A model generated the notes under the pieces. The model did no database searches, was not told the origin of the DNA, and saw nothing but the letters and a program-made list of their open reading frames with translations. Of a DNA stretch of 64,000 bases, positions 660-17,058 are shown in pieces (within the stretch, counting starts at the first letter, position 1; each line of letters begins with the position of its first letter). Position numbers and translations under genes: made by a program. The stretch spans positions 124,001 through 188,000 of the forward strand of contig NZ_JAINWJ010000008.1 of the NCBI RefSeq assembly GCF_021021415.1, read 5' to 3'. This DNA comes from Martelella mediterranea. GTDB taxonomy: Bacteria > Pseudomonadota > Alphaproteobacteria > Rhizobiales > Rhizobiaceae.

Positions 660-1658
660 ATGATTACACGACGTACATTGATGAAGACCGGCGCCGCCGT
701 TGCGGCGACACTGGCGGCCCCGAACCTGGCGCGGGCGCAGCCGATGACGGTGCGCCTTGGCCATGCCGCCAATGAAATTCACCCCGGCCACATTGCCTCG
801 CTCGAATTCAAGAAGTCGCTGGAAACCCTTGTCCCCGGTGCCTTCGACCTGCAGATCTTTCCCAACCGGCAATTGGGCGACGACCGGCAGAACGTCGAAA
901 GCTGTGTTGCCGGCACGCTGGAATTCTGCGGCGGCAGCGGTTCGACGATCTCGATCGTCACCGGCCAGGTGGCGCTGGACGCCTACCAGTTGCCGTTCCT
1001 GATCAGGGACTACGACCACTTCGCGCGCATGGCGCTCAGCCCTGAGGGCGAAGCGATCAACGAGAGCCTCATGGTGGGCGGCATACTGGGTCTGCAGACC
1101 ACCGACATCGGTCAGCGCCACTTCGCGACCGTGAGCAAGCCGGTCAGAACGCTTGCCGATTTCGCCGGGCTGAAAACCCGCATCGTTCCGCTCGAATTGC
1201 ACAAGGTCATCTGGGAAACCGTTGGCGTCAACCCCGTCGGCCTGCCTTACGGGGAAGTCTACGGCGCGCTCGAGACCGGAACCATCGACGCGTGCGAAAT
1301 CAATGTGTCGTCGATGCTGGGCGAAAACCTCTGGGAAGTGGCCAAGCATTTCACGCTGACGGGGCACTATCCGTGGCACAATGTCACCTGCGTGAACGCC
1401 GCCTTCTTCGAGGGCCTGTCGCCCGAACTGCAGGAGGCAGTGCTGACGGCCGGGCGGGAATCGGTGATTCCGACCCTCGAATACACCGCCAAGCAGGACC
1501 TGGATGGTCGCGCGGAGCTGGAGGCCAAGGGCGTGGAAATCCTCCAGCTGGAGGGGCTCGATCAGATGAAGGCCAAGGTTGCTCCGATCGTCGAGCAGTG
1601 GAGCGGGAAATCGCCTCTGATCGCCGACTTCGTGAGCGTCGCGCAGCAGCCGTCCTAG
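660..1658 (+). CDS. dctP: TRAP transporter solute-binding protein DctP
   Basis: Periplasmic binding subunit of a tripartite ATP-independent periplasmic importer, 332 residues, usual for the family. The N-terminus has a twin-arginine pattern (TRRTLMK, residues 3-9), a hydrophobic core and an ARA-Q cleavage site near residue 26, which suggests Tat export. The mature part has the DctP fold, with GLKTR at residues 170-174 placing the conserved arginine that binds the substrate carboxylate. GGAGG-like Shine-Dalgarno DNA precedes the ATG. It is followed by dctQ and dctM in the usual order, and the enzymes downstream suggest the cargo is an organic acid degraded through a beta-keto acid. Confidence 0.92.
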   Translation: MITRRTLMKTGAAVAATLAAPNLARAQPMTVRLGHAANEIHPGHIASLEFKKSLETLVPGAFDLQIFPNRQLGDDRQNVESCVAGTLEFCGGSGSTISIVTGQVALDAYQLPFLIRDYDHFARMALSPEGEAINESLMVGGILGLQTTDIGQRHFATVSKPVRTLADFAGLKTRIVPLELHKVIWETVGVNPVGLPYGEVYGALETGTIDACEINVSSMLGENLWEVAKHFTLTGHYPWHNVTCVNAAFFEGLSPELQEAVLTAGRESVIPTLEYTAKQDLDGRAELEAKGVEILQLEGLDQMKAKVAPIVEQWSGKSPLIADFVSVAQQPS

Positions 1659-1682
1659 GCCGTTGCGAGAAGGGGAGGAAAA

Positions 1683-2276
1683 ATGCAAGCGCAGTCAATC
1701 GCTGGTCCTTCGGACCTCCCGCGCTGGTTCCGATGGTTCGGGATATATACCCGCACCATCGAGGGCGTCGCGGGGGTCAGCATGGCCGTCATACTCGTTA
1801 TCATGATCGTTCAGGTCGCTGCGCGCTACCTTTTCTCCGGCTCCATCATCTGGGCGGAGGAGGCCTGCCGCTATCTCCTGTTGTGGCAGACCTTTCTCCT
1901 GCTCGGCGTCGCCTACCAGCGCGGCGAATTCGTGATGCTGGATCTCCTGCCCTACATGCTGAGTTCGCGGGCAAGGCTTGTCCTCAAATATGCGACGGCC
2001 ATCCCGGTGCTGATTTTTCTCGCCGTGATCGTCCTGAAGGGGTTCGATTACGCCTCGCGCTTCGAGCGTCAGAAGATTCCGGCGCTCGACTTCATCTGGT
2101 CGTCGCTCACTGGCGCAAACGCCGGGGTTTCAGTGAAATGGGTCTATATCTGCGTGCCGATCGGCGCGGCGCTCCTTGCCTTGCACGTCATCGCCGATCT
2201 TGTGGTGTCGACCATTCGCCATCGCCGGGGCATCGATGACCCGCCGCCCGTCGTCGACATGGGGGAACAGCTTTAA
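1683..2276 (+). CDS. dctQ: TRAP transporter small permease DctQ
   Basis: Small membrane subunit of the TRAP importer, 197 residues with four hydrophobic segments. The characteristic region around residues 50-75 contains ARYLFSGSIIWAEEACRY, the family's conserved W-x-E-E signature. It lies 24 bp after dctP with AGGGGAGG as ribosome site, and its stop codon directly abuts the ATG of dctM, so the two permease subunits are probably translationally coupled. It forms the inner-membrane complex with DctM. Confidence 0.92.
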   Translation: MQAQSIAGPSDLPRWFRWFGIYTRTIEGVAGVSMAVILVIMIVQVAARYLFSGSIIWAEEACRYLLLWQTFLLLGVAYQRGEFVMLDLLPYMLSSRARLVLKYATAIPVLIFLAVIVLKGFDYASRFERQKIPALDFIWSSLTGANAGVSVKWVYICVPIGAALLALHVIADLVVSTIRHRRGIDDPPPVVDMGEQL

Positions 2277-3557
2277 ATGGCCGGATTTTTTGGAATATTC
2301 GCCCTGCTTCTGGTAACGGGCGTGCCGATCGCGCTGGCGCTCGGGATCGGCGGCATGGCCTTTCTCTGGCTGTCCGGCAATGGCGCGATGATGCTGTCGC
2401 TACCGCAGCGGATGATGGCCGGGGTCGATCAGTTCGTGTTGCTGACCATCCCGCTGTTTCTGCTGGCCGGCGCCCTGATGAATGTCGGCGGTATTACCGA
2501 CCGCATCGTGACGTTCGCCAAGGTCTGCGTGGGCCACCGCCGGGGCGGAATGTCGAATGTCACGGTGCTTTCGGCAGGTTTCTTCGCCGGCATTTCCGGC
2601 AGCGCCAACGCCGAGGCGGCCGCACTCGGGTCGATCCTCATCCCGACGATGAAAAAGCAGGGCATTCCGGCGGCCTATGCCGCGGCGCTGGTCGGGGTGT
2701 GCTCGATCGTCGGGCCAATCATCCCGCCCTCGATCACCATGATCATCTACGGCGTGTTGTCCGGAACGTCGATCGGACAGCTTTTCATGGCCGGCGTGGT
2801 GCCGGGCGTGTTGCTGATCTGCGGCTTTCTGGCCTATGCGACATGGCGCGCCGCGCGGGACAATTTCCCGGTTTCCGAGCGCGTGCCGATGGCCGAACGC
2901 GGCGCCGCCATCTTCCGGGCGTTGCCCGCGCTGTTCCTGCCGCTGATCATCATCGTCGGCATCAAGGCCGGCATCTTCACCCCGACGGAAGCCGCCGCCG
3001 TTGCGGTCGCCTATGCGCTGGTGGTCGGCCTGATCTACCGCGATCTCACGCCGTCCCTGATATGGAACGCGCTGGTGTCGACGGCGATCATCTCCGCCTC
3101 GATCCTGTTCATCACCTCGATGGCGTCGATCGTCGCCTTCGTCTTCACGCTGGAACAAGTGCCGACGCGGATCACCGAATCCATTCTTGCGATCACCGAC
3201 AACAAGATCGCGATCCTGCTTCTCCTGAACCTGTTCCTGCTGCTTCTCGGCATGTTCCTCGATCCGATTTCCATCCTGATTCTGGCGATGCCCATCCTGT
3301 TGAAAATGAGCGGTCTGATCGGCATGGAGCCGGTTCAGTTCGGCGCGATGGTTGTCCTCAATGTCGTCATCGGCATGGCCACGCCGCCGGTCGGGATCCA
3401 GTTGTTCATCGTCGCGGGGGCGTCTGGAGAACCATTGCCGCGGATCATCCGCGAGGCGCTGCCGCTCATCGCGATCTGCCTGGTTGTGCTGATGCTGGTC
3501 GCCTTCATCCCGGCCCTGACGCTCGCGCTGCCGAACGCGCTCATCCCAGTCAATTAG
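2277..3557 (+). CDS. dctM: TRAP transporter large permease DctM
   Basis: Large, about 12-segment membrane subunit that couples sodium or proton flow to uptake, 426 residues as expected. Family hallmarks are visible: GVPIALALGIGG near the start, SAGFFAGISGSANAEAAALGSILIP about residues 100-124, IVGPIIPPSITMIIYG about residues 143-158, and a late MATPPVGIQLF. It starts immediately after the dctQ stop codon. Together with dctP and dctQ it makes a complete importer serving the enzymes that follow. Confidence 0.95.
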   Translation: MAGFFGIFALLLVTGVPIALALGIGGMAFLWLSGNGAMMLSLPQRMMAGVDQFVLLTIPLFLLAGALMNVGGITDRIVTFAKVCVGHRRGGMSNVTVLSAGFFAGISGSANAEAAALGSILIPTMKKQGIPAAYAAALVGVCSIVGPIIPPSITMIIYGVLSGTSIGQLFMAGVVPGVLLICGFLAYATWRAARDNFPVSERVPMAERGAAIFRALPALFLPLIIIVGIKAGIFTPTEAAAVAVAYALVVGLIYRDLTPSLIWNALVSTAIISASILFITSMASIVAFVFTLEQVPTRITESILAITDNKIAILLLLNLFLLLLGMFLDPISILILAMPILLKMSGLIGMEPVQFGAMVVLNVVIGMATPPVGIQLFIVAGASGEPLPRIIREALPLIAICLVVLMLVAFIPALTLALPNALIPVN

Positions 3558-5237: not shown

Positions 5238-5981
5238 ATGACGATGGAAACGCTTGATGGAAAGGTCGCATGGATCACCGGCGGCTCGCGCGGAATAGGT
5301 GCCGAAACGGCGAAGCTTCTCGCCCGACGGGGTGCTTCGGTGGTCGTCGGCTACGGCAATGCGCGCGACGAAGCCGAGGCCGTGGCCGATGCAATCGCGC
5401 GTGCCGGCGGGCGGGCCGTGATATCGGGCGGCGATGTCCGCGAGAGCGAGACTGCGGATGCGGCCGTCGACGCGGCGATCGACAATTTCGGCAGGCTCGA
5501 CATTCTGGTGACGGCCGCCGGGGTCAACCACTGGTCGAAGCTTGAGGGTATCAGCGGCGAGGACGTGACGGCCGTGATGGACGTCAATGTCGGCGGGACC
5601 TTGCAGGCAATTCGCGCCGCCGCCGCCAGGATGACTGACGGCGGTTCGATCGTCACGCTCTCGTCGCGGTTTGCACAGAATGTTCAGCCGGGCGTCGCGC
5701 TCTATGCGGCCTCGAAAGCGGCGGTGATCGCGCTGACCGAAGGGTTCGCCAAGGAACTGGGTGGCCGCGGCATCCGCGTCAACTCGGTCGCCCCCGGCCT
5801 GACCGAGACCGACATGACACGACAGGCGATTGCCGAACGGGGCGACGCGGTCGCCGCCCAGACCCCGCTCGGCCGCGTCGGCCAGCCCGAGGACATCGCC
5901 CGCGTGATCGCCATGCTGGTGTCCGAGGACGCCAGATGGGTAACCGGCAGAACCATCCGCGCCGACGGCGGGATCGTGTAA
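5238..5981 (+). CDS. short-chain dehydrogenase/reductase
   Basis: Classical SDR oxidoreductase, 247 residues. The cofactor loop TGGSRGIG occupies residues 14-21 and the active-site pair YAASK gives Tyr156 and Lys160, with the serine at 142 or 143. The usual NNAG structural motif is VTAAG. The residues after the second strand favour NADP(H) only weakly. The start at 5238 follows a strong TAGGAGG site; ATG 5244 is a less likely alternative. Last gene of the catabolic operon. A natural role is oxidation of a beta-hydroxy acid to the beta-keto acid used by the BKACE enzyme, which is inference. Confidence 0.88.
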   Translation: MTMETLDGKVAWITGGSRGIGAETAKLLARRGASVVVGYGNARDEAEAVADAIARAGGRAVISGGDVRESETADAAVDAAIDNFGRLDILVTAAGVNHWSKLEGISGEDVTAVMDVNVGGTLQAIRAAAARMTDGGSIVTLSSRFAQNVQPGVALYAASKAAVIALTEGFAKELGGRGIRVNSVAPGLTETDMTRQAIAERGDAVAAQTPLGRVGQPEDIARVIAMLVSEDARWVTGRTIRADGGIV

Positions 5982-6068
5982 CCCCGCCACGCGCGGCGCG
6001 AAGTTGACCACGGTTCTTCATAGGCATTGATAGAACGGCCGGCGTTTGCGTTCCAACCGAGACAAGTA

Positions 6069-6105
6069 TCCGTCCTGGTCAAGCTGGCTTGTTGACCAAG
6101 ACGGA
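6069..6105. terminator. stem-loop between convergent operons
   Basis: Inverted repeat TCCGTC-c-TGGTCAA / TTGACCA-a-GACGGA with a 9-nt loop and one internal mismatch, between the plus-strand catabolic operon and the minus-strand BCCT operon. It probably ends transcription from both sides, though there is no long U-tract. Confidence 0.55.
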
Positions 6106-6109
6106 CACA

Positions 6110-7954
6110 CTAACCCTTCGGGTCGTTCTTCTCGGGCCGCAGAAACAGCCAGAACGCCCAGACCACAAAGGCCAGGATTACAATCATGAGAACCGCACGG
6201 CCGGGATAGGGATTGATCCGGTCGTCCCGGATATTGACGTCGGGTGTCAGTGCCGCCGCCCGCCGCAGATGCGGGTCGACCGCGGCATGAAGGCCGAGAT
6301 TCTGATTGATGGCCTCGACATTCCTGCCCTGCAACGGTCGCACTTCCTCGAAGAAGGAACTCGGGCCCTGCTGACCGAGCACAAAGCCTTCGGGCGTTGC
6401 CGGACCGAACAGGATGAGCTGCGTCGACAATGTCGCCACCGGGCGGTCAATCCCTTCATAAACGCCACGGTTGATCTGGGCTTCCCGCATAACCGGCAGG
6501 GCAAGGCGCGCCGCACTTTTCCACCACGCATCGGCATCAACGAGCGTGATACCATCGGAAGACGCGAACAGATCCTGGAGATCCTTGCGACCCGGCTCGG
6601 AAAAGACCAGTGCGACCTCTGCTTCGCCATTGTTCAAGGCTTCCGCCGCCGTCACTGCGCTGGCGTCTTCCAGCGGCACGACCGTCACGTCGCCATCGCC
6701 TGTGGCCGCGATCAATGTCGCCATCTTGTAGGATGCCGTGCCTTCCGGCCCCGATGCGATCACCCGCGCGTCGACAGGCTCGACCGGCGCGTCCGACAAG
6801 GACAGGGCATGCAGAAAGGTTGACCCGACTGCGGCGACGGCCTCAACGCGTTCATCGCGCACCATCGTACCGTCGACCCAGGCAAATGCGGCGGGCGCCG
6901 GCGCCAGTGCCAGCCGCGCGTCACCGACAGCCATGGCCTCCAGCGGCACGTTGAAGTCAACGATATTCACATCGCGGCCACGCATTGCCTTGCGCACGGC
7001 CCTGAGCGTGGCGATGCCGGCATCGGTGCCCAGCGTTTCCGGTTGCATGGCAATACCCAGAACCGGCGTGCGCTCGCGGGGCGGTTTGTCGACCAGACCC
7101 ATATCGAACAGCGCGCGCCGTGCCACCCGGTTGACCGGACGACCGTCGAGGCGCACGGCCGCGTTCAGATCCCGGATCATCGCGCCGTCGATCTTTCCGG
7201 CGAGCTTGGCCATAGCCGTTTCAATCACCGGCGACTGCGCCAGCGCCTTTCGCGACGTCAGCGGCGCGGCTTCGTAAATCGGGAAGAATCCGGTGCTGTC
7301 CTCAAGCGCCACCAGTTCATAATCTTCGATTTCCGGATCGGTGGTAAATCCGACGATGACATCCACACGACGCTCGAGAAGCGCATCGTAAAGACCTTCG
7401 CGGTTGGCTTCGCCGAACACCACGATGTCTTCGAAATTCAGGCCGAAACGGTCAAGAAACGGCTCGAGCCCGTCGCGCGGACGTTCGGCGAACGACTGGG
7501 TGATGCCGAGACGCAGCTGTGGCGCAGCGCGTGACAGGCTCGAAACGGTCACAAGGCCATTTTCAGCGGCAATGGCCGGGCGTGTCAGCACAGCATAGCC
7601 GGTATCGAAGCCAAGACGCTCCAGCATAACCAGACCGCTGTCTTCGAGAACGGCGGAAACAGCCGCGTAATCGTCGTCCGCGCTTCCCGAGCGCGGTGTT
7701 CCCATCATAGCCAGGGCCGTTCCGGTATATTCCGGATAAAGATCGATATCGCCGTCGCGAAGCGCCTGGAAGACGATCTCCGTGGAACCGAGAGACGGCA
7801 CCCGCTTCACCTTCGCGCCTTCCTGCTCAAGAAGCAGCGCGAACATTTCAGCGACGATCCGATTTTCGACAAGGTCCTTGGAACCGACCCGCACTGTCTC
7901 AGAGGAGCAGCCGGTCAGCAGGACGACGATCAGCAGGGACAGAATGGCTCTCAT
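6110..7954 (-). CDS. dual-module solute-binding lipoprotein coupled to BCCT carrier
   Basis: 614 residues. The N-terminus ends in the lipobox LLTGC (Cys16), predicting a lipoprotein. Residues about 20-280 match the OpuAC/OsmF glycine betaine binding fold: VRVGSKDLVENRI, then STEIVFQALRDGDIDLYPEYTGT and a late ALFDMGLVD. Residues about 290-540 look like a second binding-protein module, weakly TAXI-like (MATLIAATGDGDVTV, VYEGIDRPVATLSTQLIL). A single membrane segment (about 588-606) and a short charged tail end the protein. ATG 7954 is preferred over longer in-frame starts because it opens directly on the lipoprotein signal and overlaps the BCCT stop codon as ATGA. Binding proteins normally serve ABC importers, so pairing with a BCCT carrier is odd. 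It may deliver betaine or choline, or sense it. Confidence 0.8.
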   Translation of the reverse strand: MRAILSLLIVVLLTGCSSETVRVGSKDLVENRIVAEMFALLLEQEGAKVKRVPSLGSTEIVFQALRDGDIDLYPEYTGTALAMMGTPRSGSADDDYAAVSAVLEDSGLVMLERLGFDTGYAVLTRPAIAAENGLVTVSSLSRAAPQLRLGITQSFAERPRDGLEPFLDRFGLNFEDIVVFGEANREGLYDALLERRVDVIVGFTTDPEIEDYELVALEDSTGFFPIYEAAPLTSRKALAQSPVIETAMAKLAGKIDGAMIRDLNAAVRLDGRPVNRVARRALFDMGLVDKPPRERTPVLGIAMQPETLGTDAGIATLRAVRKAMRGRDVNIVDFNVPLEAMAVGDARLALAPAPAAFAWVDGTMVRDERVEAVAAVGSTFLHALSLSDAPVEPVDARVIASGPEGTASYKMATLIAATGDGDVTVVPLEDASAVTAAEALNNGEAEVALVFSEPGRKDLQDLFASSDGITLVDADAWWKSAARLALPVMREAQINRGVYEGIDRPVATLSTQLILFGPATPEGFVLGQQGPSSFFEEVRPLQGRNVEAINQNLGLHAAVDPHLRRAAALTPDVNIRDDRINPYPGRAVLMIVILAFVVWAFWLFLRPEKNDPKG

Positions 7955-9540
7955 GGTGTCACCTCGGCGGGCTTTTCGTCCTTGGGCGCGGTTTTCTCGC
8001 GTGACGGGTCTTTTCTGAGGCGGCGCAGGAAGCTTACGATCTGGAGGATCAGGATTGCCGAAAACGGGATCGCGCCAAGCGTCGACATCGCGCGCGCCAC
8101 ATCGACGGAACCGGCCATCAGCGTTGCCGCGGTGATGATCGCGACAAGCGTGCCCCACAACACCTTCGCAGACGACGGCGGATTGAGATTGCCGTTGGTC
8201 GTCATCATCGACAGCACGAAGGTGCCGCTATCGGCCGAGGTCACGAGGAAGATCACGATCAGCAACAATGCCGCAATGCTCAGCACCGACGAAAACGGGA
8301 AATAGTCGAGGAAGGTGAACAGGGCCGCCGCCACGTCCTGGGTGATGACCGACGCCAGCCCGCCCGGGCCGTAAAGCTCGATATAGATGCCGGCGCCGCC
8401 AAAGACCGCAAACCACAGGACGGAAAACACGGTCGGGATCAGAATAACCCCCATGCAGAATTCCCGGATCGTCCGCCCGCGCGAAATGCGCGCGATGAAG
8501 ACGCCGACAAACGGCCCCCATGCCAGCCACCAGATCAGATAGGTCAGTGTCCAGTTTGCCGACCAGTCGGTAAGGCCCTCGAACGGAAACAGCCGGAATG
8601 ACATGTTCACGAACTGCGAAACATACGATCCGAGCGTCGTCACGAAGGTTTCCATGATGAAACTCGTCGGGCCCATCACGAGGATATAGCCCATCATCGC
8701 AAGACCGAGCGCCATATTGATGTCCGACAGCAGTTTCATGCCCTTTTCGACGCCGGTGAGCGTCGAAATCATGTACATCACGAAGAGCGCGGCGAGCACC
8801 ATCAAGGACACGCTGTTGACCGCCGGAACATCGAACAGGGATGTCAGGCCCGAGCGCACCTGCAGCGCTCCCATGGCCAGCGATCCGGCAAGGCCGAAGA
8901 CCACAGCGACAACGCCGAGGACATCCGCCGTTGTCGCCGCAACCTCGGAAGAGCGGCCTGAAAACAAGCCTCTGAGCGGCGTCGAAATCAGCGGCGGCTT
9001 CTCAAGCCGGAAAGTGAAATAGGCAATCACCAGTGCACAGACGCCATAGATCGACCACGCATGAAGCCCCCAATGGAGATTGGTGATGACCAGCGCCTGT
9101 CTGGCCGCCTCGGCCGATTGCGAAACGCCAGCGGGCGGGTTTTCGAAATGGGTCACCGGCTCGGCAACGCCCCAGAACAGAAGCCCTGCCCCCATCCCGC
9201 CGGCGAACAGCATCGCAATCCACGAGGCAAAGGAAAACTCCGGCTTCTCGTCGTCCTTGCCAAGGCGAATCGAACCATAGGGACCGAGTGCGAGAAAGGC
9301 GGCGAGAATAACAAAACACGAGCACAGCAGAAGCCACCACCAACTGGCCCCGACCATGAAATAGCCTGTAAAACCCAGAACGCTCGCCGCCATCTGGTCC
9401 GGGGCAATCACGCCCCATGCACCGATCGGCAAGCATAAAAGCAATGAGATGATAACGACTTTGTTGACCTGCACGCTTAAGTGCCCCCTCGGCTTGGTCA
9501 GAAGATGTTGGCGGTATTTGCGATGCCATATTTTAGCCAT
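7951..9540 (-). CDS. BCCT family betaine/choline/carnitine transporter
   Basis: Secondary carrier with about 12 membrane segments, 529 residues. The family loop GGMGAGLLFWGVAEP spans residues 114-128; the GMGxG pattern resembles sodium-coupled BetP rather than CaiT. The substrate tryptophan motif WWLAWGPFVGVFIARISRG matches the W-W-x-x-W box that cages quaternary ammonium groups in BetP. The N-terminal tail is short, without the long acidic osmosensor seen in some members. Its stop codon overlaps the start of the downstream binding lipoprotein by 4 nt (ATGA), so the two are translationally coupled. Probable role: uptake of betaine, choline or a relative for osmoprotection or nutrition. Confidence 0.93.
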   Translation of the reverse strand: MAKIWHRKYRQHLLTKPRGHLSVQVNKVVIISLLLCLPIGAWGVIAPDQMAASVLGFTGYFMVGASWWWLLLCSCFVILAAFLALGPYGSIRLGKDDEKPEFSFASWIAMLFAGGMGAGLLFWGVAEPVTHFENPPAGVSQSAEAARQALVITNLHWGLHAWSIYGVCALVIAYFTFRLEKPPLISTPLRGLFSGRSSEVAATTADVLGVVAVVFGLAGSLAMGALQVRSGLTSLFDVPAVNSVSLMVLAALFVMYMISTLTGVEKGMKLLSDINMALGLAMMGYILVMGPTSFIMETFVTTLGSYVSQFVNMSFRLFPFEGLTDWSANWTLTYLIWWLAWGPFVGVFIARISRGRTIREFCMGVILIPTVFSVLWFAVFGGAGIYIELYGPGGLASVITQDVAAALFTFLDYFPFSSVLSIAALLLIVIFLVTSADSGTFVLSMMTTNGNLNPPSSAKVLWGTLVAIITAATLMAGSVDVARAMSTLGAIPFSAILILQIVSFLRRLRKDPSREKTAPKDEKPAEVTP

Positions 9541-9647
9541 TGTGCAACATGGGCATCAGCATGAGTCAACCGATCACCGGCACGTGCCGAAATCAGCAAT
9601 CCCGCTATCCAGAGCTTCCCGCTCTTCACTGCGATTCTTCAGAATGC

Positions 9648-9719
9648 ATGGTCTCAATCCAAACGATTCCGCTATTGCTGACGTCGGACGCTGAAACGCT
9701 TGTCGAGGCAAGCCGCTGA
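9648..9719 (+). pseudogene. 3' remnant of a META-domain protein gene
   Basis: A 24-codon stretch ends in LLLTSDAETLVEASR and a stop. This matches the last residues of the envelope protein at 22783-24012 (ALLLTSGAETLIEASRR), and similarity continues at DNA level past the stop (TCGCCGTGCATTTTCTCGGG here, TCGTGCACTTTTTCGGGG there). No upstream coding part survives. The rest of the 9541-9944 gap holds only the BCCT upstream region and the amt terminator. Confidence 0.5.
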
Positions 9720-9889
9720 TCGCCGTGCATTTTCTCGGGTCAGGACCGCTGTCAGGAGAGCAGTGCGATCCAGACGAGCGCGAGCATCATGCATCGTCTG
9801 GCAATCGATCGCGTCCCAGGCCTGCCTGCCGGTGATCCGCCCGAAACCGATAACGGTGATATCAAGGATAGCTCCGGCGGTTGACGGGA

Positions 9890-9930
9890 AATACAAAACG
9901 ATAGCCGGGCAGCCTTGAGACCGCCCGGCT
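9890..9930 (-). terminator. Rho-independent terminator of amt
   Basis: On the minus strand, 15 nt after the amt stop codon, AGCCGGGC and GCCCGGCT (9930-9923 and 9910-9903) form a perfect 8-bp stem with a 12-nt loop. A U-rich run (ATCGTTTTGTATTT) follows. Confidence 0.75.
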
Positions 9931-9944
9931 GTCGTGGCTTTTGC

Positions 9945-11186
9945 TTACTTGTTAATGTCGTTCTTCATGTTGAAGAGGTTGAAGGCGCGTTCGCCAACCA
10001 TGGCCTCATCGACGCCTTCCTCCTGAACATCTTCAGCCACCCGCAGATGTCCGAAGCCCGCGAGGATCTTCAGCAGGATCGTCGTGATGATCCACGAATA
10101 GGCGGCGACGATAACGACGGCCAGCACCTGCACGCCAAGCTGCTTCACGCTCGCCGAAACGGCGTTGATATGCGAACTGGCCATGAAGCCGATCAGGATC
10201 GCGCCGGTCATGCCGCCGACGCCATGGGCGCGCCAGACTTCCAGAGTATCGTCGATCTTCAGCCATTCCTGAACATATTTGGCATTGTAGCAGACGGTCG
10301 CGCCGATCGCGCCGATCAGCAGCGCGGCCATCGGCTCGACATAGCCGGCGGCGGGCGTGATCGTGGCAAGGCCGGTCACCGCGCCGACGAGAACGCCGGA
10401 GAAGGAGACCCGCTTGTGCTCGCGCCACTCCCACAACATCCAGACCAGCATGGCGATCGCGCCGGCGAGCATGGTGTTGGTGAAGGCGTAGGCCGCAAGC
10501 GCATCCGCCGCATAGGCGCCGCCGGCATTGAAGCCGAACCAGCCGAACCACAACAGCCCCGCGCCAAGCGCCACCAGCGGCAGGCTCGCCGGCTGGCTTT
10601 CGGGATCGCCGACGGCGACCTTGCGCTTGCCAAGGAATCTGGCGGCGGCAAGGGCTGAGAAACCCGCGGCGGTGTGGATCACGATACCGCCTGCAAAATC
10701 GACAACGCCCATCTTGGAAAGAAATCCGCCGCCCCAGATCCAGTGCGCCGCCGGCAGGTATACCAGGATCGTCCACAAAGCCACGAAGAACAGATAGGCA
10801 CCGAATTTGAAACGACCGACAAAGGCACCGGTCATCAGTGCCGGCGTGATGATCGCGAACATCATCTGATAGGCGAAGACCATCATGAAGGGAATGTGCG
10901 GCGCGTAGGTGTCATTCGGACTGATGCCCACATGATACATGCCGAAATAGGGCCGGATATCGCCGATGATCCCGCCAATGGATGGACCGAAGGCCAGGCT
11001 GAAACCGCCGAACACCCAGATGATGCTGACGATCCCGATACAGACGAAATTCTGGATCATGATCGACAGCACATCGCGCTGCTTGACCAGGCCGCCGTAG
11101 AAAAGTGCAAGGGCCGGGGTCATCATGCAGACCAGCGCCGTGCAGATCAGAACAAACGCGGTGTCCCCCGCATTGATCGCTTGCAT
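9945..11186 (-). CDS. amt: ammonium transporter Amt
   Basis: AmtB/MEP/Rh-type ammonium channel, 413 residues with about 11 membrane segments. The start INAGDTAFVLICTALVCMMTPALALFYGGLV is the classic first helix, and PAAHWIWGGGFL with VDFAGGIVIHTAAGFSAL carries the first pore histidine of the twin-His pair. The C-terminal tail is cytosolic, as needed for GlnK regulation, but no glnK gene is adjacent, unlike the common glnK-amtB pair. It lies 57 bp after the urea transporter on the same strand. Its probable job is to capture ammonium, including ammonium leaking from urease activity. Confidence 0.95.
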   Translation of the reverse strand: MQAINAGDTAFVLICTALVCMMTPALALFYGGLVKQRDVLSIMIQNFVCIGIVSIIWVFGGFSLAFGPSIGGIIGDIRPYFGMYHVGISPNDTYAPHIPFMMVFAYQMMFAIITPALMTGAFVGRFKFGAYLFFVALWTILVYLPAAHWIWGGGFLSKMGVVDFAGGIVIHTAAGFSALAAARFLGKRKVAVGDPESQPASLPLVALGAGLLWFGWFGFNAGGAYAADALAAYAFTNTMLAGAIAMLVWMLWEWREHKRVSFSGVLVGAVTGLATITPAAGYVEPMAALLIGAIGATVCYNAKYVQEWLKIDDTLEVWRAHGVGGMTGAILIGFMASSHINAVSASVKQLGVQVLAVVIVAAYSWIITTILLKILAGFGHLRVAEDVQEEGVDEAMVGERAFNLFNMKNDINK

Positions 11187-11215
11187 AACCTTCTCCTTTG
11201 AAAAGCTTGTTTTTT

Positions 11216-11238
11216 GGCGCGACCGCCCCGGTCGCGCC
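11216..11238. other. GC-rich stem-loop between urea transporter and amt
   Basis: Perfect 9-bp inverted repeat GGCGCGACC / GGTCGCGCC with a 5-nt loop in the 57-bp gap. On the minus-strand transcript it is followed by A-rich rather than U-rich sequence, so it is not a standard terminator. It may be an RNA-processing or attenuation element that separates amt expression from the urease operon. Confidence 0.5.
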
Positions 11239-11243
11239 GCTCT

Positions 11244-12230
11244 TTAGTTGTTGGTATCGGTGACCAGATGCTCGCCGACCGCGCTGTGCGGATGCGGCGC
11301 GAGCAGCTTCTTCGGCGCGATGAACAGATACATCGTCAGCACGTAGGGCGCGGTGAAGGACGGCAGGCCGAGCGGCTCGGTCAGCACGTCATAGGCGCCC
11401 TGCAGGAACACGGTGACGATCGTGGCCAGCAGCGCGTAGACGACCACCCGCGGCGACGGCTTCAGAAAGATGACGCCAACCGCCATCGCCGTCAGCACCG
11501 CGCTGAAGCCGTAAAGCCCCTGCACCACCAAATGCGGCTCCGCCCGAAGCGCGATCGCCGTCGCTATGGCGATCAGCGAGCCGCAAATGGCGGCAATGCC
11601 GGCCACGCGCGAGGCGATCAGAATGCCGAGCAGGATGATCGCGCCGCTGATCTCGTTGCCGAGAAGATAGACCTGGCCAATATTGCGAAAGAAGATCTGG
11701 ACCAGTTCGACATGGGACGGGATCATCGTCACGCCCTTGATGTAGTCGGAGGCCAGTTCGGGATGGTCGCCGGAAACATCGAGCGCGCCAAACGTGTAGG
11801 CGCCCGCCACCAGCAGCCAGCCGGTCAGCACGAAAGGACCTGTGGAGCCTGGGATCCCCCAGCTTTTGGTGATCATCGCCCCGAGCGCCGCCGTCACCAC
11901 CGTGCTCATGGCCGCGCCGATGACCACGTAAAACCAGAGCTGTGGCGAGACGCTGATGAAGGTCGGCAGCGCGACGCCCACGAGAATGCCGTTGAAGCCG
12001 AACAGGCCGGAGGTGATCGAATCCTCGTCGCAATCGAGAAGCCGCGCGGTGAGCGTGGCGACGATGAGGCCGACAAGCGCGCCGATCGTGGTCGACCAGT
12101 TTCCGCCAGCATAGCTTGCATAGGCGATCGCGACGATGAACAGCGCGCCGGTGAGCGCGTTCTCCATGAAGAACACCTGCCCCGCGCCCCTCAGGCATTG
12201 CGTTCCAAAATCTTTCCGCTTCTCCGTCAT
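11244..12230 (-). CDS. urea transporter (UT family channel)
   Basis: 328 residues, about ten membrane segments arranged as two similar halves. GLFGFNGILVGVALPTF in the first half and GLYGFSAVLTAMAVGVIFL in the second are the paired selectivity-filter regions of the UT family (SLC14-like). ATG 12230 begins MTEKRKDFG; the longer in-frame reading up to 12494 lies inside ureD and is rejected. It follows ureD by 26 bp, so it ends the urease operon and supplies urea to the enzyme. The family is passive, so uptake depends on internal hydrolysis. Confidence 0.9.
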   Translation of the reverse strand: MTEKRKDFGTQCLRGAGQVFFMENALTGALFIVAIAYASYAGGNWSTTIGALVGLIVATLTARLLDCDEDSITSGLFGFNGILVGVALPTFISVSPQLWFYVVIGAAMSTVVTAALGAMITKSWGIPGSTGPFVLTGWLLVAGAYTFGALDVSGDHPELASDYIKGVTMIPSHVELVQIFFRNIGQVYLLGNEISGAIILLGILIASRVAGIAAICGSLIAIATAIALRAEPHLVVQGLYGFSAVLTAMAVGVIFLKPSPRVVVYALLATIVTVFLQGAYDVLTEPLGLPSFTAPYVLTMYLFIAPKKLLAPHPHSAVGEHLVTDTNN

Positions 12231-12256
12231 ATCCGCACCCCCTTCTTGGCCCTTGA

Positions 12257-13192
12257 TCAACGCCAGAGAAATTCCTCCGGCAGCGTTTTGCCGCGGGCTT
12301 CTTCCCTGACGACCTTCCAGAAATTTCTGACCTCCGCGCGCACGTCGTAGCTTTCGATCCCGACCACGCGCAGCATCAACCCGGCGCCGTTCGGAAGCGT
12401 CGAGACGCCGGATATCGCGCGCGGCCGTTCGTCGCCGAAATTGACGTTCACCCGCTCCCGGATGCGCTCGGCAACAGCCGGCGGCGTGATGCACAGAATG
12501 TTGGCAAAGGCATCGTAGCCGCCCATCACCGCGGCAAAATCGATCGTCTCGTTGCCCTTCTCGATCAGCACCTTCTCGGTGAACAGCTTGCGGCCGTCCG
12601 GCCGGCGGGCATTGACGGTCATCGACAGGAGGTCGAAGCCGAAGCGTTCGCTTGCGTGGTGATGCTTGCGGCCGGTCATCATCATCTCGCCATAGAGCAG
12701 CGTCGCGTCTTCATGGACCACGAGATCGGTGTCGTTGATGAAGCGCGAGTCCCGATAGGGAATGGTGAAGTCCGGCAGGAATTCGAGATAGGCGTCCTTT
12801 GCGAGCGTCACCGTCTGGTGCTGCGAGGCGTAATTGGCGTCCATCTGATGGATGCGGTTCGCGCCCTGCGAGGTCACCTGGGCACAGGCCCCCTCGCCCA
12901 CCAAAATATCGATCGTGTAGCGATCGCCCTGCAATATGCCGCCGCCGATCGAGATGATCGAGCAGATCGGCAGTTCCGGCATTGCCTCGTCCCAGTAGAG
13001 GGCCTGCTGCACCAGAAGCGGCGTGACCCGGTAGAGATCGGACAGCACGGAGCGGCCGCCACGCTGCGAGAAGCCGAGGCGCAACGCCCCGATCTTGCCG
13101 GGGCCGGCCGCGCGCATCTGCGCCGGTTCCGCCTTGAACCCGCTCAGTTCCCGGTACTCGTCGATCCGGCGCAGACGTTCATGCAGGCTCAT
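12257..13192 (-). CDS. ureD: urease accessory protein UreD
   Basis: Scaffold protein (UreD/UreH) that binds apo-urease and recruits UreF and UreG during nickel insertion, 311 residues. Typical motifs are QRGGRSVLSDLYRVTPLLVQQALYWDEAMP early, ISIGGGILQGDRY, and TSQGANRIHQM. The C-terminal part contains the conserved VEKVLIEKG-like segment. In many bacteria ureD heads the cluster; here it is last of the accessory genes, 4 bp after ureG. Confidence 0.93.
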   Translation of the reverse strand: MSLHERLRRIDEYRELSGFKAEPAQMRAAGPGKIGALRLGFSQRGGRSVLSDLYRVTPLLVQQALYWDEAMPELPICSIISIGGGILQGDRYTIDILVGEGACAQVTSQGANRIHQMDANYASQHQTVTLAKDAYLEFLPDFTIPYRDSRFINDTDLVVHEDATLLYGEMMMTGRKHHHASERFGFDLLSMTVNARRPDGRKLFTEKVLIEKGNETIDFAAVMGGYDAFANILCITPPAVAERIRERVNVNFGDERPRAISGVSTLPNGAGLMLRVVGIESYDVRAEVRNFWKVVREEARGKTLPEEFLWR

Positions 13193-13196
13193 CAGA

Positions 13197-13841
13197 TCAC
13201 TCGGCGGCTTGGCCGGAGGCGGGCGTCACGTCGAACAGCGCCATATCCATGATCAGCTTCATCAGTTCGTCCACGCCCTCGCCGGTCTTGCAATTGGTGA
13301 ACACGAACGGCTTCTTGCCGCGCATCAGCTTGGAATCCCGGTCCATGACGCCGAGATCAGCCCCCACATATGGCGCGAGATCGGTCTTGTTGATCACCAG
13401 GATATCCGACTGGCAGACGCCGGCGCCGTTCTTGCGCGGGATCTTGTCGCCGGCGGCGACGTCGATGACGTAGATGTAGAAATCGGCGAGCGCCGGGCTG
13501 AAGGTCAGCGTCAGATTGTCGCCGCCCGATTCGATCAGGATGACGTCGCTGTCGGGATATTTCTCCTCCATCTCCTCGACCGCGGCGATGTTCATGGAAG
13601 GGTCTTCGCGCACGGCGGTGTGCGGGCATGCCCCGGTTTCCACGCCGACGATCTTTTCCTCGACCAGCACACCCTTCAGCGTGCGACGCACCTGCTTGGC
13701 GTCCTCGGTGGTGACGACGTCATTGGTGATGATCAGCGGCTTGACGCCGAGTTCGATCAGCCGCGGGGTGATGGTTTCGATCACGGCCGTCTTGCCCGAC
13801 CCAACCGGGCCGCCAATGCCGATACGCGTGATTTTCTTCAT
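13197..13841 (-). CDS. ureG: urease accessory GTPase UreG
   Basis: SIMIBI-class GTPase that delivers nickel to urease, 214 residues. The P-loop GGPVGSGKT is at residues 10-18, the metal-binding CPH motif lies in [14 protein letters not shown], and ESGGDNL and [13 protein letters not shown] complete the GTPase motifs. It lies 25 bp after ureF and 4 bp before ureD, inside the urease operon. Confidence 0.97.
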
Positions 13842-13866
13842 TGTGCCAATCCTTTTTTTCCGCCGG

Positions 13867-14589
13867 TCAGTTCATGAACAGCCGGACATGGGTTCTGGTG
13901 TGATGGGCGACGAGGACATCGAAGACCGGCGCGAAGCCGGACATTTCGTCGAGGTCCAGTCCGTGGACGCGCTCGTAATCGGCCTCGACGCGGGCCTGCA
14001 CGGCAAACAGAATGCGCTGGGTATCGAGATGATCGATCCGCATCAGCCGCACCGCAGCACTCATGATCATCGCCGCAACGCCATACTGGTGCACGACAAA
14101 GGCCTGCTTCTCATCTGCCCCCATATGCGCCAGCGCGACCGCCTGGCCGATCGGAAAGCAGCCCGGCGTCGCACCGGCCTTGATATCGGCCAGCCAGCGT
14201 TCGAGATCGGGAAACGTGCTGATCTTCAGGGAAAGCTCCGCGAATTTCCGGCCCATGCGGGCGAGCATCATCTGCTGCTCCTCGCCCACGCGTCGGTTCC
14301 ACAATTCCCGGTCCGCCTCCAGCACGGCGTCATAGGCACCGCGCCGGGCTGCGCGATGGGCATGGAGGAAGGCGATGCCGTCCATGCCCGAGGCCTGCCG
14401 CACCACCGTTTCGACGAAGCGTTCCAGGCTTGCCGCATCGGCGACGACGCCGGTCTGGATCGCCGATTCCAGTCCGTTGGAAAAGGCGAACGCGCCGACG
14501 GGCAACGTCGAATCCGAAAACTGCAGAAGACGTGCAAGCAGGATCATGTCGTCTGCCGAGCCTGTCCTGCTGCTGTTCTCATCTGCCAT
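13867..14589 (-). CDS. ureF: urease accessory protein UreF
   Basis: All-helical accessory protein, 240 residues, that with UreD and UreG forms the urease activation complex and gates GTP hydrolysis by Ure[22 protein letters not shown] near the start is the family signature, and the C-terminus keeps [19 protein letters not shown]-like helices. It follows ureE by 15 bp. Confidence 0.93.
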
Positions 14590-14604
14590 GCCCCTGCCTC
14601 GCGA

Positions 14605-15192
14605 TCAGTGGTGGTGATGGTCGCCATGGCCGTGACCATGGTCATGGTGGTGATGCGGCGTCGCGTCGGCCCCGGCAAAGAGCATCCGCACCTCGCGCGC
14701 GTCGAGCTTGGCGGCGATTTCCTCGCCGGGCGCGAAATGGCTCTTCACGCCCTCGAACGCATGGGTCTTCATCACCGAGGCCATGACCTTCTGGTCGACG
14801 GAGAGCGGCACATAGACGGTGCTGCCCTTGATGACACTCGGCCAGTGCTGGTTGCCGAGGCCGTGGCCCAGTTCGAAGCACACCCTGAGGATTTCCTGCG
14901 GCGACAGGGTTTCGAGCCCTTCGAGCTCGATCACCATGACCTCCTTCAGCGCGATGCGGGCAGCGATGATGGTGTTGCTGGCCTCATCGTAATAAAGGAC
15001 ATCGTCATTGTGGAGATGCTCCGAGCGCGGCAGCGAGATCGCGAGTTCGGTTCCGCCCTCGCTCGCCTTGCGCAGGCGGTTCTTCGGCGCTTCCCACTGT
15101 TCGAGCGCGAGGTAGTCGACCGTCGCCTCGTGGGAGCGTTTGTGCCAGTCGGCATCCCTCAGGTTGCCAAGGATTTTTTCGACAAGGATCAT
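14605..15192 (-). CDS. ureE: urease nickel metallochaperone UreE
   Basis: 195 residues. The N-terminal domain begins MILVEKILGNL and the metal-binding domain includes CFELGHGLGNQHWP, whose GNQHW is the conserved interface. The tail is very histidine-rich (HHHHDHGHGHGDHHHH), typical of nickel-storing UreE. The start was set at 15192 because upstream codons to 15339 in the same frame do not match the family. The 147 bp between ureC and this start hold no gene I can support. Confidence 0.93.
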   Translation of the reverse strand: MILVEKILGNLRDADWHKRSHEATVDYLALEQWEAPKNRLRKASEGGTELAISLPRSEHLHNDDVLYYDEASNTIIAARIALKEVMVIELEGLETLSPQEILRVCFELGHGLGNQHWPSVIKGSTVYVPLSVDQKVMASVMKTHAFEGVKSHFAPGEEIAAKLDAREVRMLFAGADATPHHHHDHGHGHGDHHHH

Positions 15193-15339
15193 GGTGTTCG
15201 CCGCATTCTGTACGCCTTGAAAGAAGAGCCGAAACGCACCGGGGCCTGTCTGGCCCGCGATGCCGCCTTCGGCTGAACGTCCCCGGCGTCGTTGTTGTTG
15301 GACGGGCCGGGCGAAGGTTTGCTTCGCCCGGCATCGCAA

Positions 15340-17058
15340 TCAGCTGAAGAAGTGAAGCTGGTTCAGCGGGATCGTGGTCGCCGGCTCGACGGTCGCGTGC
15401 TTGCCGTTGACGGTCACCGCGAAGGTCTCCGGGTTGACCTCGATCTCCGGCAGGGCGCTGTTGCGCACCATCGAGCTCTTGCTGATCGTGCGCGTGCCAT
15501 AGACCGGCACCACATGCGACTGGAGCTGATAGCGGTCGACGATGCCGTCCTCATAGCCTGCCAGCGATGTGAAGGTGACGCGGGTCTTCGGCAGCGCCGA
15601 GCCGTAGGCGCCGAACATCGGACGGTAGAGTACCGGCTGCGGCGTCGGCAGCGAGGCGTTCGGATCGCCCATCAGCGCCCAGGAAATGAGGCCGCCCTTG
15701 ATCACCATTTTCGGCTTGGCGCCGAAGAAGGCCGGCTCCCAGAGCACGAGATCGGCCATCTTGCCGACTTCGACCGAGCCGATCACATGGCTGACGCCCT
15801 GCGCGATCGCCGGATTGATCGTGACCTTGGCGACGAAGCGCAGCACGCGCTCGTTGTCATTGCCCGACGTATCGCCATCATAGGCGCCCATCCGGTCCTT
15901 CATCAGATGCGCGGTCTGGATCGTGCGCGCCCAGTTCTCGCCGACGCGGCCCATGGCCTGGCTGTCGCTGGACAGGATCGAGATCGCGCCGAGATCGTGC
16001 AGCACGTTTTCAGCGGCAATGGTTTCCGGGCGGACGCGGCTCTCGGCGAAGGCGACGTCGGTCGGGATCTTGGGGCTGAGATTGTGGCAGATCATCGTCA
16101 TGTCGAACAATTCGGCCTGCGAATTGATGCCATAGGGCAGCGTCGGATTGGTCGAGCTCGGAATGACGTTGGACTGGCCGGCGACCCGGATGATGTCCGG
16201 CGCGTGTCCGCCGCCCGCACCTTCCGTATGGTAGGTGTGGATGGTGCGGCCCTCGAAGGCGGCGATCGTGTTTTCGACGAAGCCGGCCTCGTTCAGCGTA
16301 TCGGTATGGATGCAGACCTGGACGTCGAACTCATCGGCGACGCGCAGCGAGGTGCGGATCGCTTCCGGCGTGCTGCCCCAGTCCTCGTGGATCTTCAGGC
16401 CCATGACGCCGGCGCGGAGCTGCTCCTCGATCGGAAGCCGGGCGGAGACATTGCCCTTGCCCAGCACGCCGGCATTGACCGGCCAGCCGTCGAAGGAACG
16501 CAGCATCATCTCGACATTCCAGGTGCCGGGGGTGATGGTGGTGCCGTTGGTGCCGTCGGTCGGGCCGATGCCGCCGCCGAACAGCGTGGTGACGCCGTTG
16601 GAAAGCGCGGCTTCCGCCTGCTGGGGCGAGATGAAGTGGACGTGGGCATCGATGCCGCCCGCCGTCAGGATCAGGTGCTCGCCGGAAATCGCGTCGGTGC
16701 CCGGTCCAAGCGCCAGCCCCGGCGTCACGCCCGACATGGTGGACGGGTTGCCGGCCTTGCCGATCGCGCAGATATTGCCGTTCTTGACGCCGACATCGGC
16801 CTTGATGACGCCCTGCACGGGGTCGAGGATGGTCACGTTGGTGATGACGAGGTCCGGGGCGCCAGCGGCATTGGTGAGCTCGTTGTCGTAGCCCATGCCG
16901 TCGCGCAGCGTCTTGCCGCCGCCATAGACGGCTTCCTCGCCATAGACCCGGAGGTCCTTTTCGATCTCGATGTAGAGATCGGTGTCGCCGAGGCGGATCT
17001 TGTCGCCGGTCGTCGGACCGTAGAGGTCGGAATACTGCTGTCTTGAAATCTTGGCCAT
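15340..17058 (-). CDS. ureC: urease alpha subunit UreC
   Basis: Catalytic subunit, 572 residues. The nickel site is complete: HVHFISP supplies two histidines, GLKIHEDWG holds the carbamylated lysine, [10 protein letters not shown] and [15 protein letters not shown] give further ligands and flap residues, CHNLSP holds the mobile-flap cysteine, and SSDSQAMGR gives the last aspartate. It hydrolyses urea to ammonia and carbamate in the cytosol. It lies 36 bp after ureB. Confidence 0.98.

Follow-up and report, generated by a model that had tools for sequence, protein, structure and literature searches.

The window analyzed here, a 64,000-nucleotide stretch of Martelella mediterranea DNA (contig NZ_JAINWJ010000008.1, positions 124,001 to 188,000), encodes a BCCT carrier and, directly downstream of it, a solute-binding lipoprotein composed of two modules. 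Based on the anatomy of the two proteins, their genomic linkage and the binding-site residues that they retain, we read the two genes, with moderate confidence, as a single uptake system in which a BCCT carrier would be served by its own membrane-tethered binding protein. Both genes lie on the minus strand, with the BCCT gene at 9540-7951 (529 amino acids) followed by the lipoprotein gene at 7954-6110 (614 amino acids; ATG at 7954, stop codon ending at 6110). The BCCT stop and the lipoprotein start overlap as ATGA at 7951-7954 (computed junction -4 nucleotides), as had been noted in a preliminary description of this DNA. An alternative 682-residue reading of the lipoprotein frame begins within the BCCT gene; the ATG at 7954 was taken as the start because it agrees with the lipobox and with the homologues. 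A promoter and terminator scan of the window found one of each against 1.1 and 4.0 expected, respectively, and none of these signals rises above chance.

The lipoprotein begins with a signal (7907-7954) that ends in the lipobox LTGC, with Cys16 as the predicted lipidation site. The Pfam model LPAM_1 matches this signal at an E-value of only 0.39, and the lipobox pattern is present in all 20 loci examined. An OpuAC module (residues 20-280; 7115-7897) is followed by a TAXI-like module (residues ~297-570; 6245-7066), which was recognized by profile comparisons with TAXI proteins, and by a predicted C-terminal membrane helix (residues 587-605; 6196-6140) with a short tail. The mean Kyte-Doolittle hydropathy of the helix is 2.89, and a C-terminal hydrophobic segment is likewise found in 20 of the 20 loci. 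The preliminary description had proposed each of these elements from the letters of the DNA, and all of them hold up under the searches reported here.

The OpuAC module retains the betaine-binding residues of characterized receptors. Pfam OpuAC (PF04069) scores 148.4 bits on it against a cut-off of 21.2, and the best match of a profile of the module is ProX of Archaeoglobus fulgidus (AfProX, E-value 1.5e-57). AfProX residues K13, Y63, T66, Y111, R149, Y190 and Y214, which we take to make up its betaine-binding site, align with K26, Y76, T79, Y120, R158, F203 and Y227 of the window protein; one cage tyrosine is replaced by phenylalanine (F203), and AfProX D109 is not conserved in the window module. 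The binding set reported for EgtUC comprises K242, F293, T296, Y341, R379, Y419 and Y443, with the lysine, threonine and arginine holding the carboxylate (PMC9732360). The site numbering of EgtUC and AfProX was matched in this analysis and differs by a near-constant offset of 229-230. In a table of site residues covering 20 loci and leaving aside ten later ones (L117-L122, L131-L134), six residues (K, Y, T, Y, R, Y) are identical in 19 loci and the seventh is phenylalanine or tyrosine in 18, the exceptions being L088 (E, Q, V) and L025, which has leucine at the seventh position. Judged by these alignments, the OpuAC module is a predicted betaine receptor that keeps the site of AfProX and EgtUC with one tyrosine-to-phenylalanine change, and the carboxylate contacts made by K, T and R in EgtUC make betaine a likelier ligand than choline. 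A separate gene for an OpuAC-type receptor comes immediately behind hutC and hutH in Martelella mediterranea DSM 17316 (L026, 3357-6810), hinting at uptake of histidine betaine or ergothioneine for breakdown.

The second module is best described as a divergent TAXI-type module, a classification that draws on PDB-profile, TIGR02122, NMT1_3 and profile-profile matches. A profile of 12 C-terminal halves matched TTHA1157 (1us4) in the PDB with an E-value of 1.4e-10, in addition to 8u79 and, weakly, VcGluP (8s4j, E-value 0.006). TIGR02122, the NCBIfam TAXI model, matches the second modules of all 12 members at E-values up to 1 (best 7.3e-13); the window module alone reaches 17.6 bits, far below the curated cut-off of 84.35. 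Pfam NMT1_3 (PF16868) was found in nine of the 12 members of the second-module set, and in the window protein it covers residues 343-516 with 26.2 bits, narrowly below the cut-off of 27. Four TAXI-family proteins encoded in the same genome served for a profile-profile comparison, which gave a probability of 94.4 and an E-value of 8.8e-8. The earlier suggestion of a second binding-protein-like module is thus sustained, and the PDB-profile, TIGR02122 and profile-profile matches rule out that the module is unrelated to binding proteins. In VcGluP, glutamine Q93 matters most for glutamate binding, the tyrosine being Y45 (PMC11574862). Profile position 66, which pairs with Gln78 of TTHA1157, is Pro352 in the window protein (counted by hand), and the N-terminal stretch of the module, which lies outside the profile match, has no tyrosine by eye where Tyr45 would fall. 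As far as can be aligned, the second module is a TAXI (TRAP-type) homologue without the two key glutamate-binding residues, and glutamate binding by it is disfavored. The glycine/serine loop of the TAXI pattern (GPEGTAS) and His382 are still present, so that the module may bind another ligand.

The carrier is a BCCT protein by Pfam (PF02028, 544 bits against a cut-off of 27) and by alignment to BetP, BetT-like chains and others; among solved structures, a trimethylamine transporter, choline carriers and BetP come nearest to it. It has the aromatic residues W157, W162 and Y165 in transmembrane helix (TM) 4 and W337, W338 and W341 in TM8, together with V433-T434-S435. The corresponding patterns, HW..H.W..Y in TM4 and WW.[AS]W.PF in TM8, occur in 25 of 25 pair BCCTs, and from the roles known in BetP we take these aromatics to be trimethylammonium-binding residues. 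Gly119, in the glycine stretch of TM3, aligns with a glycine in BetP and with aspartate in the choline-carrier chains 9vbn and 9vbp, a position that presumably separates betaine from choline carriers. Read in this way, the carrier and the OpuAC module independently point to a betaine, which suggests that both proteins handle the same class of substrate. The C-terminal tail past the TM12 motif is short, with 18-43 residues in the 24 of 25 proteins where it could be measured and 25 in the window. As an observation on the family, 24 of the 25 pair BCCTs read WW.AWGPF in TM8 (window residues 337-344), where L088, BetP and the BetT-like chains have WSPF; the glycine after the substrate-contacting tryptophan may be a clade signature.

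The gene order is conserved wherever it could be assessed. We collected 31 loci with the two-module lipoprotein, 30 of them with upstream sequence, the remaining one (L089) beginning inside the lipoprotein gene. A same-strand BCCT gene lies directly upstream of the lipoprotein gene in all 30: the window itself; L003, L024, L025, L042 and L052-L058 (11/11); L081-L088 (8/8); L117-L122 (6/6); and L131-L134 (4/4, L131 being the NC20 plasmid). L130 was not counted, as it lies on the same contig as L003. An order repeated in every assessable locus is beyond chance. With starts chosen by script, the junction in 20 loci is -4 nucleotides in five, -10 in one and +12 to +26 in 14; six further loci have junctions of -4, -1, +4, +5, +5 and +5, where the starts of L118 and L119 were set by hand at the ATG proper to the lipobox, +5 and +4 nucleotides from the BCCT stop, respectively. 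On Paracoccus aminovorans plasmid IV (L024, 6395-7971, plus strand) the BCCT partner is split into two frames next to a lipoprotein and a Usp gene that look intact, which may reflect a broken gene or a sequencing error.

Full-length lipoprotein genes were found in 2 of 151 genomes of the family of the window genome and in 6 of 13 genomes of the genus Martelella. They recur in 8 of 23 genomes of the family of genome G485 and, at full or contig-cut length, in 16 of 61 genomes of its order (G934 being cut by a contig edge), as well as in at least 7 of 345 genomes of the family of G855; this last count and those for class and phylum given below are lower bounds, since at most three candidates were scored per genome, and the genome sets overlap. 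Three plasmid records, Martelella NC18 and NC20 and Paracoccus aminovorans, carry the lipoprotein over at least 80% of its length. A contig scan with exact peptide patterns of the window protein, which finds close relatives only, returned one locus, and no full-length lipoprotein was found outside Alphaproteobacteria, where other phyla were covered by the plasmids and this one close-relative scan only. The preliminary description had left room for the pair being peculiar to one strain. Its recurrence in the genus, on a Paracoccus plasmid and in other alphaproteobacterial families rules out a one-strain accident. OpuAC-only loci were considered as members of the same system and rejected: none of five (L090-L093 and L129, Gemmatirosa) has a BCCT gene in the stretch examined. 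Conversely, no such lipoprotein adjoins the other BCCT of the window genome or two near BCCTs of the order of G485, for which flanks of 1.5 kb were available in L109 and L110.

Carrier and lipoprotein also tend to occur together. A BCCT profile search of the 61 genomes of the order of G485, at a limit of 1e-150, gave matches in 17 genomes. The best 14 (E-value 2.8e-267 or less), which form the main clade, come from genomes that all hold the lipoprotein, adjoining the carrier, and the genome of the fifteenth match (G941, 4.5e-170) holds it too. In the sixteenth lipoprotein genome, G934 (69% complete), the lipoprotein starts at base 1 of its contig and no BCCT match was found. Hence 15 of the 16 lipoprotein genomes of the order have a BCCT close to the main clade, the exception lying at a contig edge, and 43 genomes have neither protein at these limits. 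For 25 pairs (L024 and L131-L134 were left out), pairwise distances of the carriers and of the lipoproteins correlate with r = 0.968, or 0.975 without L088, and none of 2000 permutations was as high in either case. The main groups of the two trees largely agree, including that of Martelella with L122, but inside groups the trees disagree (in how L052, L081 and L117 are arranged), and L083/L084 and L118-L121 stay unresolved in the BCCT tree.

A third gene follows the pair in many loci. In 21 of the 30, the lipoprotein gene is succeeded by a gene of some 150 codons with a match to a Usp query, 3 to 71 nucleotides past the lipoprotein stop in 20 of them and 396 nucleotides past it in L087; three of these genes were checked in Pfam and belong to PF00582. 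L089, outside the 30, also has one. No downstream Usp gene was found in the other nine loci, comprising seven from Martelella, L088 and L122 (with 1.5 kb downstream searched in L131-L134 and the window assessed by its list of open reading frames (ORFs)). In Halomonas elongata, the Usp protein TeaD is encoded after teaABC and lowers ectoine uptake with teaA mRNA unchanged, its loss raising uptake (PMC2964678), which makes a cytoplasmic Usp regulator of the carrier plausible. In the window genome, the other BCCT gene is directly preceded by a Usp-matching ORF (L044, G000:C12:5000-20000, at 5860-8190; tblastn E-value 4e-11), and there is no lipoprotein beside it, so the pairing of BCCT and Usp recurs on its own.

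The preliminary description assigned binding proteins to ABC or TRAP importers; as an exclusive rule this is outdated, as tripartite tricarboxylate transporters and the proposed TAXI-GltS systems use them as well (PMC12344293). By analogy, TAXI-GltS is the closest known system to the pair. In Bordetella pertussis the gene for BP0403, a glutamate-binding protein with a TAXI domain at its C-terminus, overlaps the GltS gene (BP0402); the authors state that experimental verification of the coupling is still to come (PMC12344293). Both systems show tight receptor-carrier linkage conserved across lineages, here in 30 of 30 loci from several families. They differ in that GltS is modelled as an elevator whereas the carrier here is a BCCT, of LeuT fold, and in that BP0403 has a PilO-like N-terminal domain in place of a betaine-type binding protein. 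The retained ligand site lies in the OpuAC module here and in the TAXI module there, and the present pair adds a C-terminal membrane helix and, in 21 of 30 loci, Usp. The second module is homologous to the TRAP-TAXI receptor VcGluP (PMC11574862), but a BCCT replaces the TRAP membrane subunit, the glutamine position is Pro352 and the module falls below the TIGR02122 cut-off. Cluster F-III receptors (AfProX, OpuBC/OpuCC, EgtUC; PMC9732360) have the same OpuAC cage and carboxylate residues and feed ABC permeases; here a BCCT adjoins, and a TAXI-like module and membrane helix are attached. TeaABC-TeaD (PMC2964678) resembles the pair in combining a secondary carrier for compatible solutes, a binding protein and a trailing Usp, but its carrier and receptor are TRAP proteins, and the Martelella loci lack Usp at this place. 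BetP, BetT and OpuD have PF02028 and both aromatic boxes in common with the pair BCCT, BetP also the glycine. The BCCT carriers treated in PMC5818414 are described there as single-component, whereas 14 of 14 main-clade BCCTs in the order of G485 stand beside the lipoprotein. No BCCT with a binding protein is described among the matches listed from titles and abstracts of open-licence PMC articles, and the recurring pair suggests a partnership previously undescribed for BCCT carriers.

From the sequences we infer contact between lipoprotein and carrier, the ligand, its delivery and the roles of the TAXI-like module and Usp, as follows. The lipoprotein would be held at the inner membrane by both ends, through the lipid on Cys16 and through helix 587-605, and a receptor anchored in this way would remain close to one carrier. 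Its OpuAC module would close around a betaine, which is probably glycine betaine itself or a similar quaternary amine with a carboxylate, and then let it go where the BCCT opens to the outside; when substrate is scarce, such delivery would raise affinity and possibly directionality. For the TAXI-like module, docking on the carrier or acting as a spacer for the OpuAC module is likelier than glutamate binding. Outside Martelella, the cytoplasmic Usp encoded next in most relatives probably tunes the carrier, as TeaD does. The Discussion of PMC12344293 asks why binding proteins are not commoner with secondary transporters, considers that an elevator feature may be needed and sees further classes as the test. 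If the pair works as proposed, a lone BCCT gene would not always be a whole transporter, which bears on the prediction of betaine uptake from genomes. BCCT carriers have the LeuT fold and, as in BetP, well-studied mechanics, so that a BCCT with an obligate-looking binding protein would be such a test case. To our knowledge, binding-protein-dependent secondary carriers have so far been elevators or modelled as such. We tentatively raise the possibility that here, for the first time, a LeuT-fold (BCCT) carrier forms part of a binding-protein-dependent transporter, with a doubly anchored two-module receptor delivering betaine, in which case an elevator would not be required.

Several observations weigh against such a receptor-fed carrier. 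The BCCTs that we know of work alone, as single components, and the pair BCCT holds a complete substrate site of its own. With only elevators as precedents, delivery to a LeuT-fold carrier may be mechanically hard. The pair is sparse (lipoprotein in at least 2 of 385 genomes of the class and at least 2 of 398 of the phylum), and no fusion of lipoprotein and BCCT turned up in the loci read, among which no systematic search for one was made. BCCT matches without the lipoprotein exist in G935 and G936 (E-values of about 1e-156 and 1e-152), and the correlation between the trees partly reflects shared species descent. Structure predictions from only two alignment rows gave mean predicted local distance difference test scores of 36 for the whole lipoprotein and 34 for the second module alone, and the models were not used. 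In L088, the OpuAC site is degraded, with glutamate for lysine, glutamine for arginine and valine at the tyrosine/phenylalanine position, and its BCCT (from G941) groups with those of the lipoprotein-free G935 and G936 (support 100/100), outside the main clade, which makes the pair either a highly divergent one or the product of a separate recruitment. The L088 pair (8186-11787, minus strand), with its degraded cage and no Usp found, possibly has a separate origin or another ligand.

The preliminary description had offered either a binding-protein-assisted BCCT or a substrate sensor that gates it. A functional unit of BCCT and binding protein is supported, the binding-site residues of both proteins point to a betaine, and feeding and gating are both still in play. 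As a gate, the lipoprotein would be a betaine sensor whose ligand-bound form opens or stabilizes the carrier while Usp reports the state of the cytoplasm. The substrate site kept by the BCCT and the Usp gene downstream in 21 of 30 loci fit this arrangement, and a carrier with so short a C-terminal tail (25 residues in the window) could make use of a separate sensor. However, the OpuAC module resembles an ordinary scavenging receptor, Usp is missing downstream in nine of 30 loci including all seven from Martelella, and we know of no BCCT with a sensor gate of this kind; we consider gating unlikely.

It is more doubtful still that the lipoprotein, as an ancillary subunit, serves the BCCT in folding, targeting or stability, much as single-span heavy chains do for SLC7 transporters, which also have the LeuT fold, and that its binding sites are a relic. 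One predicted membrane span with a large outside part, the degraded TAXI site and the 30/30 linkage would all agree with it, but the residues of the betaine site persist in 19 of 20 homologues though identity drops to about 30%, which a relic does not explain. Service to an unlinked ABC permease, or another receptor role, with the operon shared only because both proteins handle betaine, is poorly supported and in our view very improbable. OpuAC proteins normally feed ABC permeases and the window genome encodes a further OpuAC-type protein (G000:C50); against this, an unlinked partner would not yield the 30/30 linkage and the joint presence, a C-terminal membrane helix and a second module are, we assume, unusual for ABC receptors, and neither a betaine ABC permease nor a TRAP membrane subunit was found in 20 flanking ORFs selected across 12 loci plus the window. 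A receptor feeding its adjoining BCCT is the reading that we prefer.

One of these 20 flanking ORFs matched no family. The single ABC ATPase among them, in L003, lies in what looks from ORF order like a molybdate (mod-like) ABC cluster, and in L121 ORFs resembling TRAP subunits lie one gene away, judged by look. Oxidoreductases of DAO type (L055) and GMC type (L058) occur nearby and would fit betaine or choline breakdown. In the window itself, a TRAP-type cluster with, by look, a DctP-like receptor and small and large membrane subunits lies at 660-3557 on the plus strand, opposite to the BCCT pair. Upstream of the pair, at 9945-17058 on the minus strand, is an ammonium transporter gene (PF00909) preceded by an apparent urea transporter gene and urease genes.

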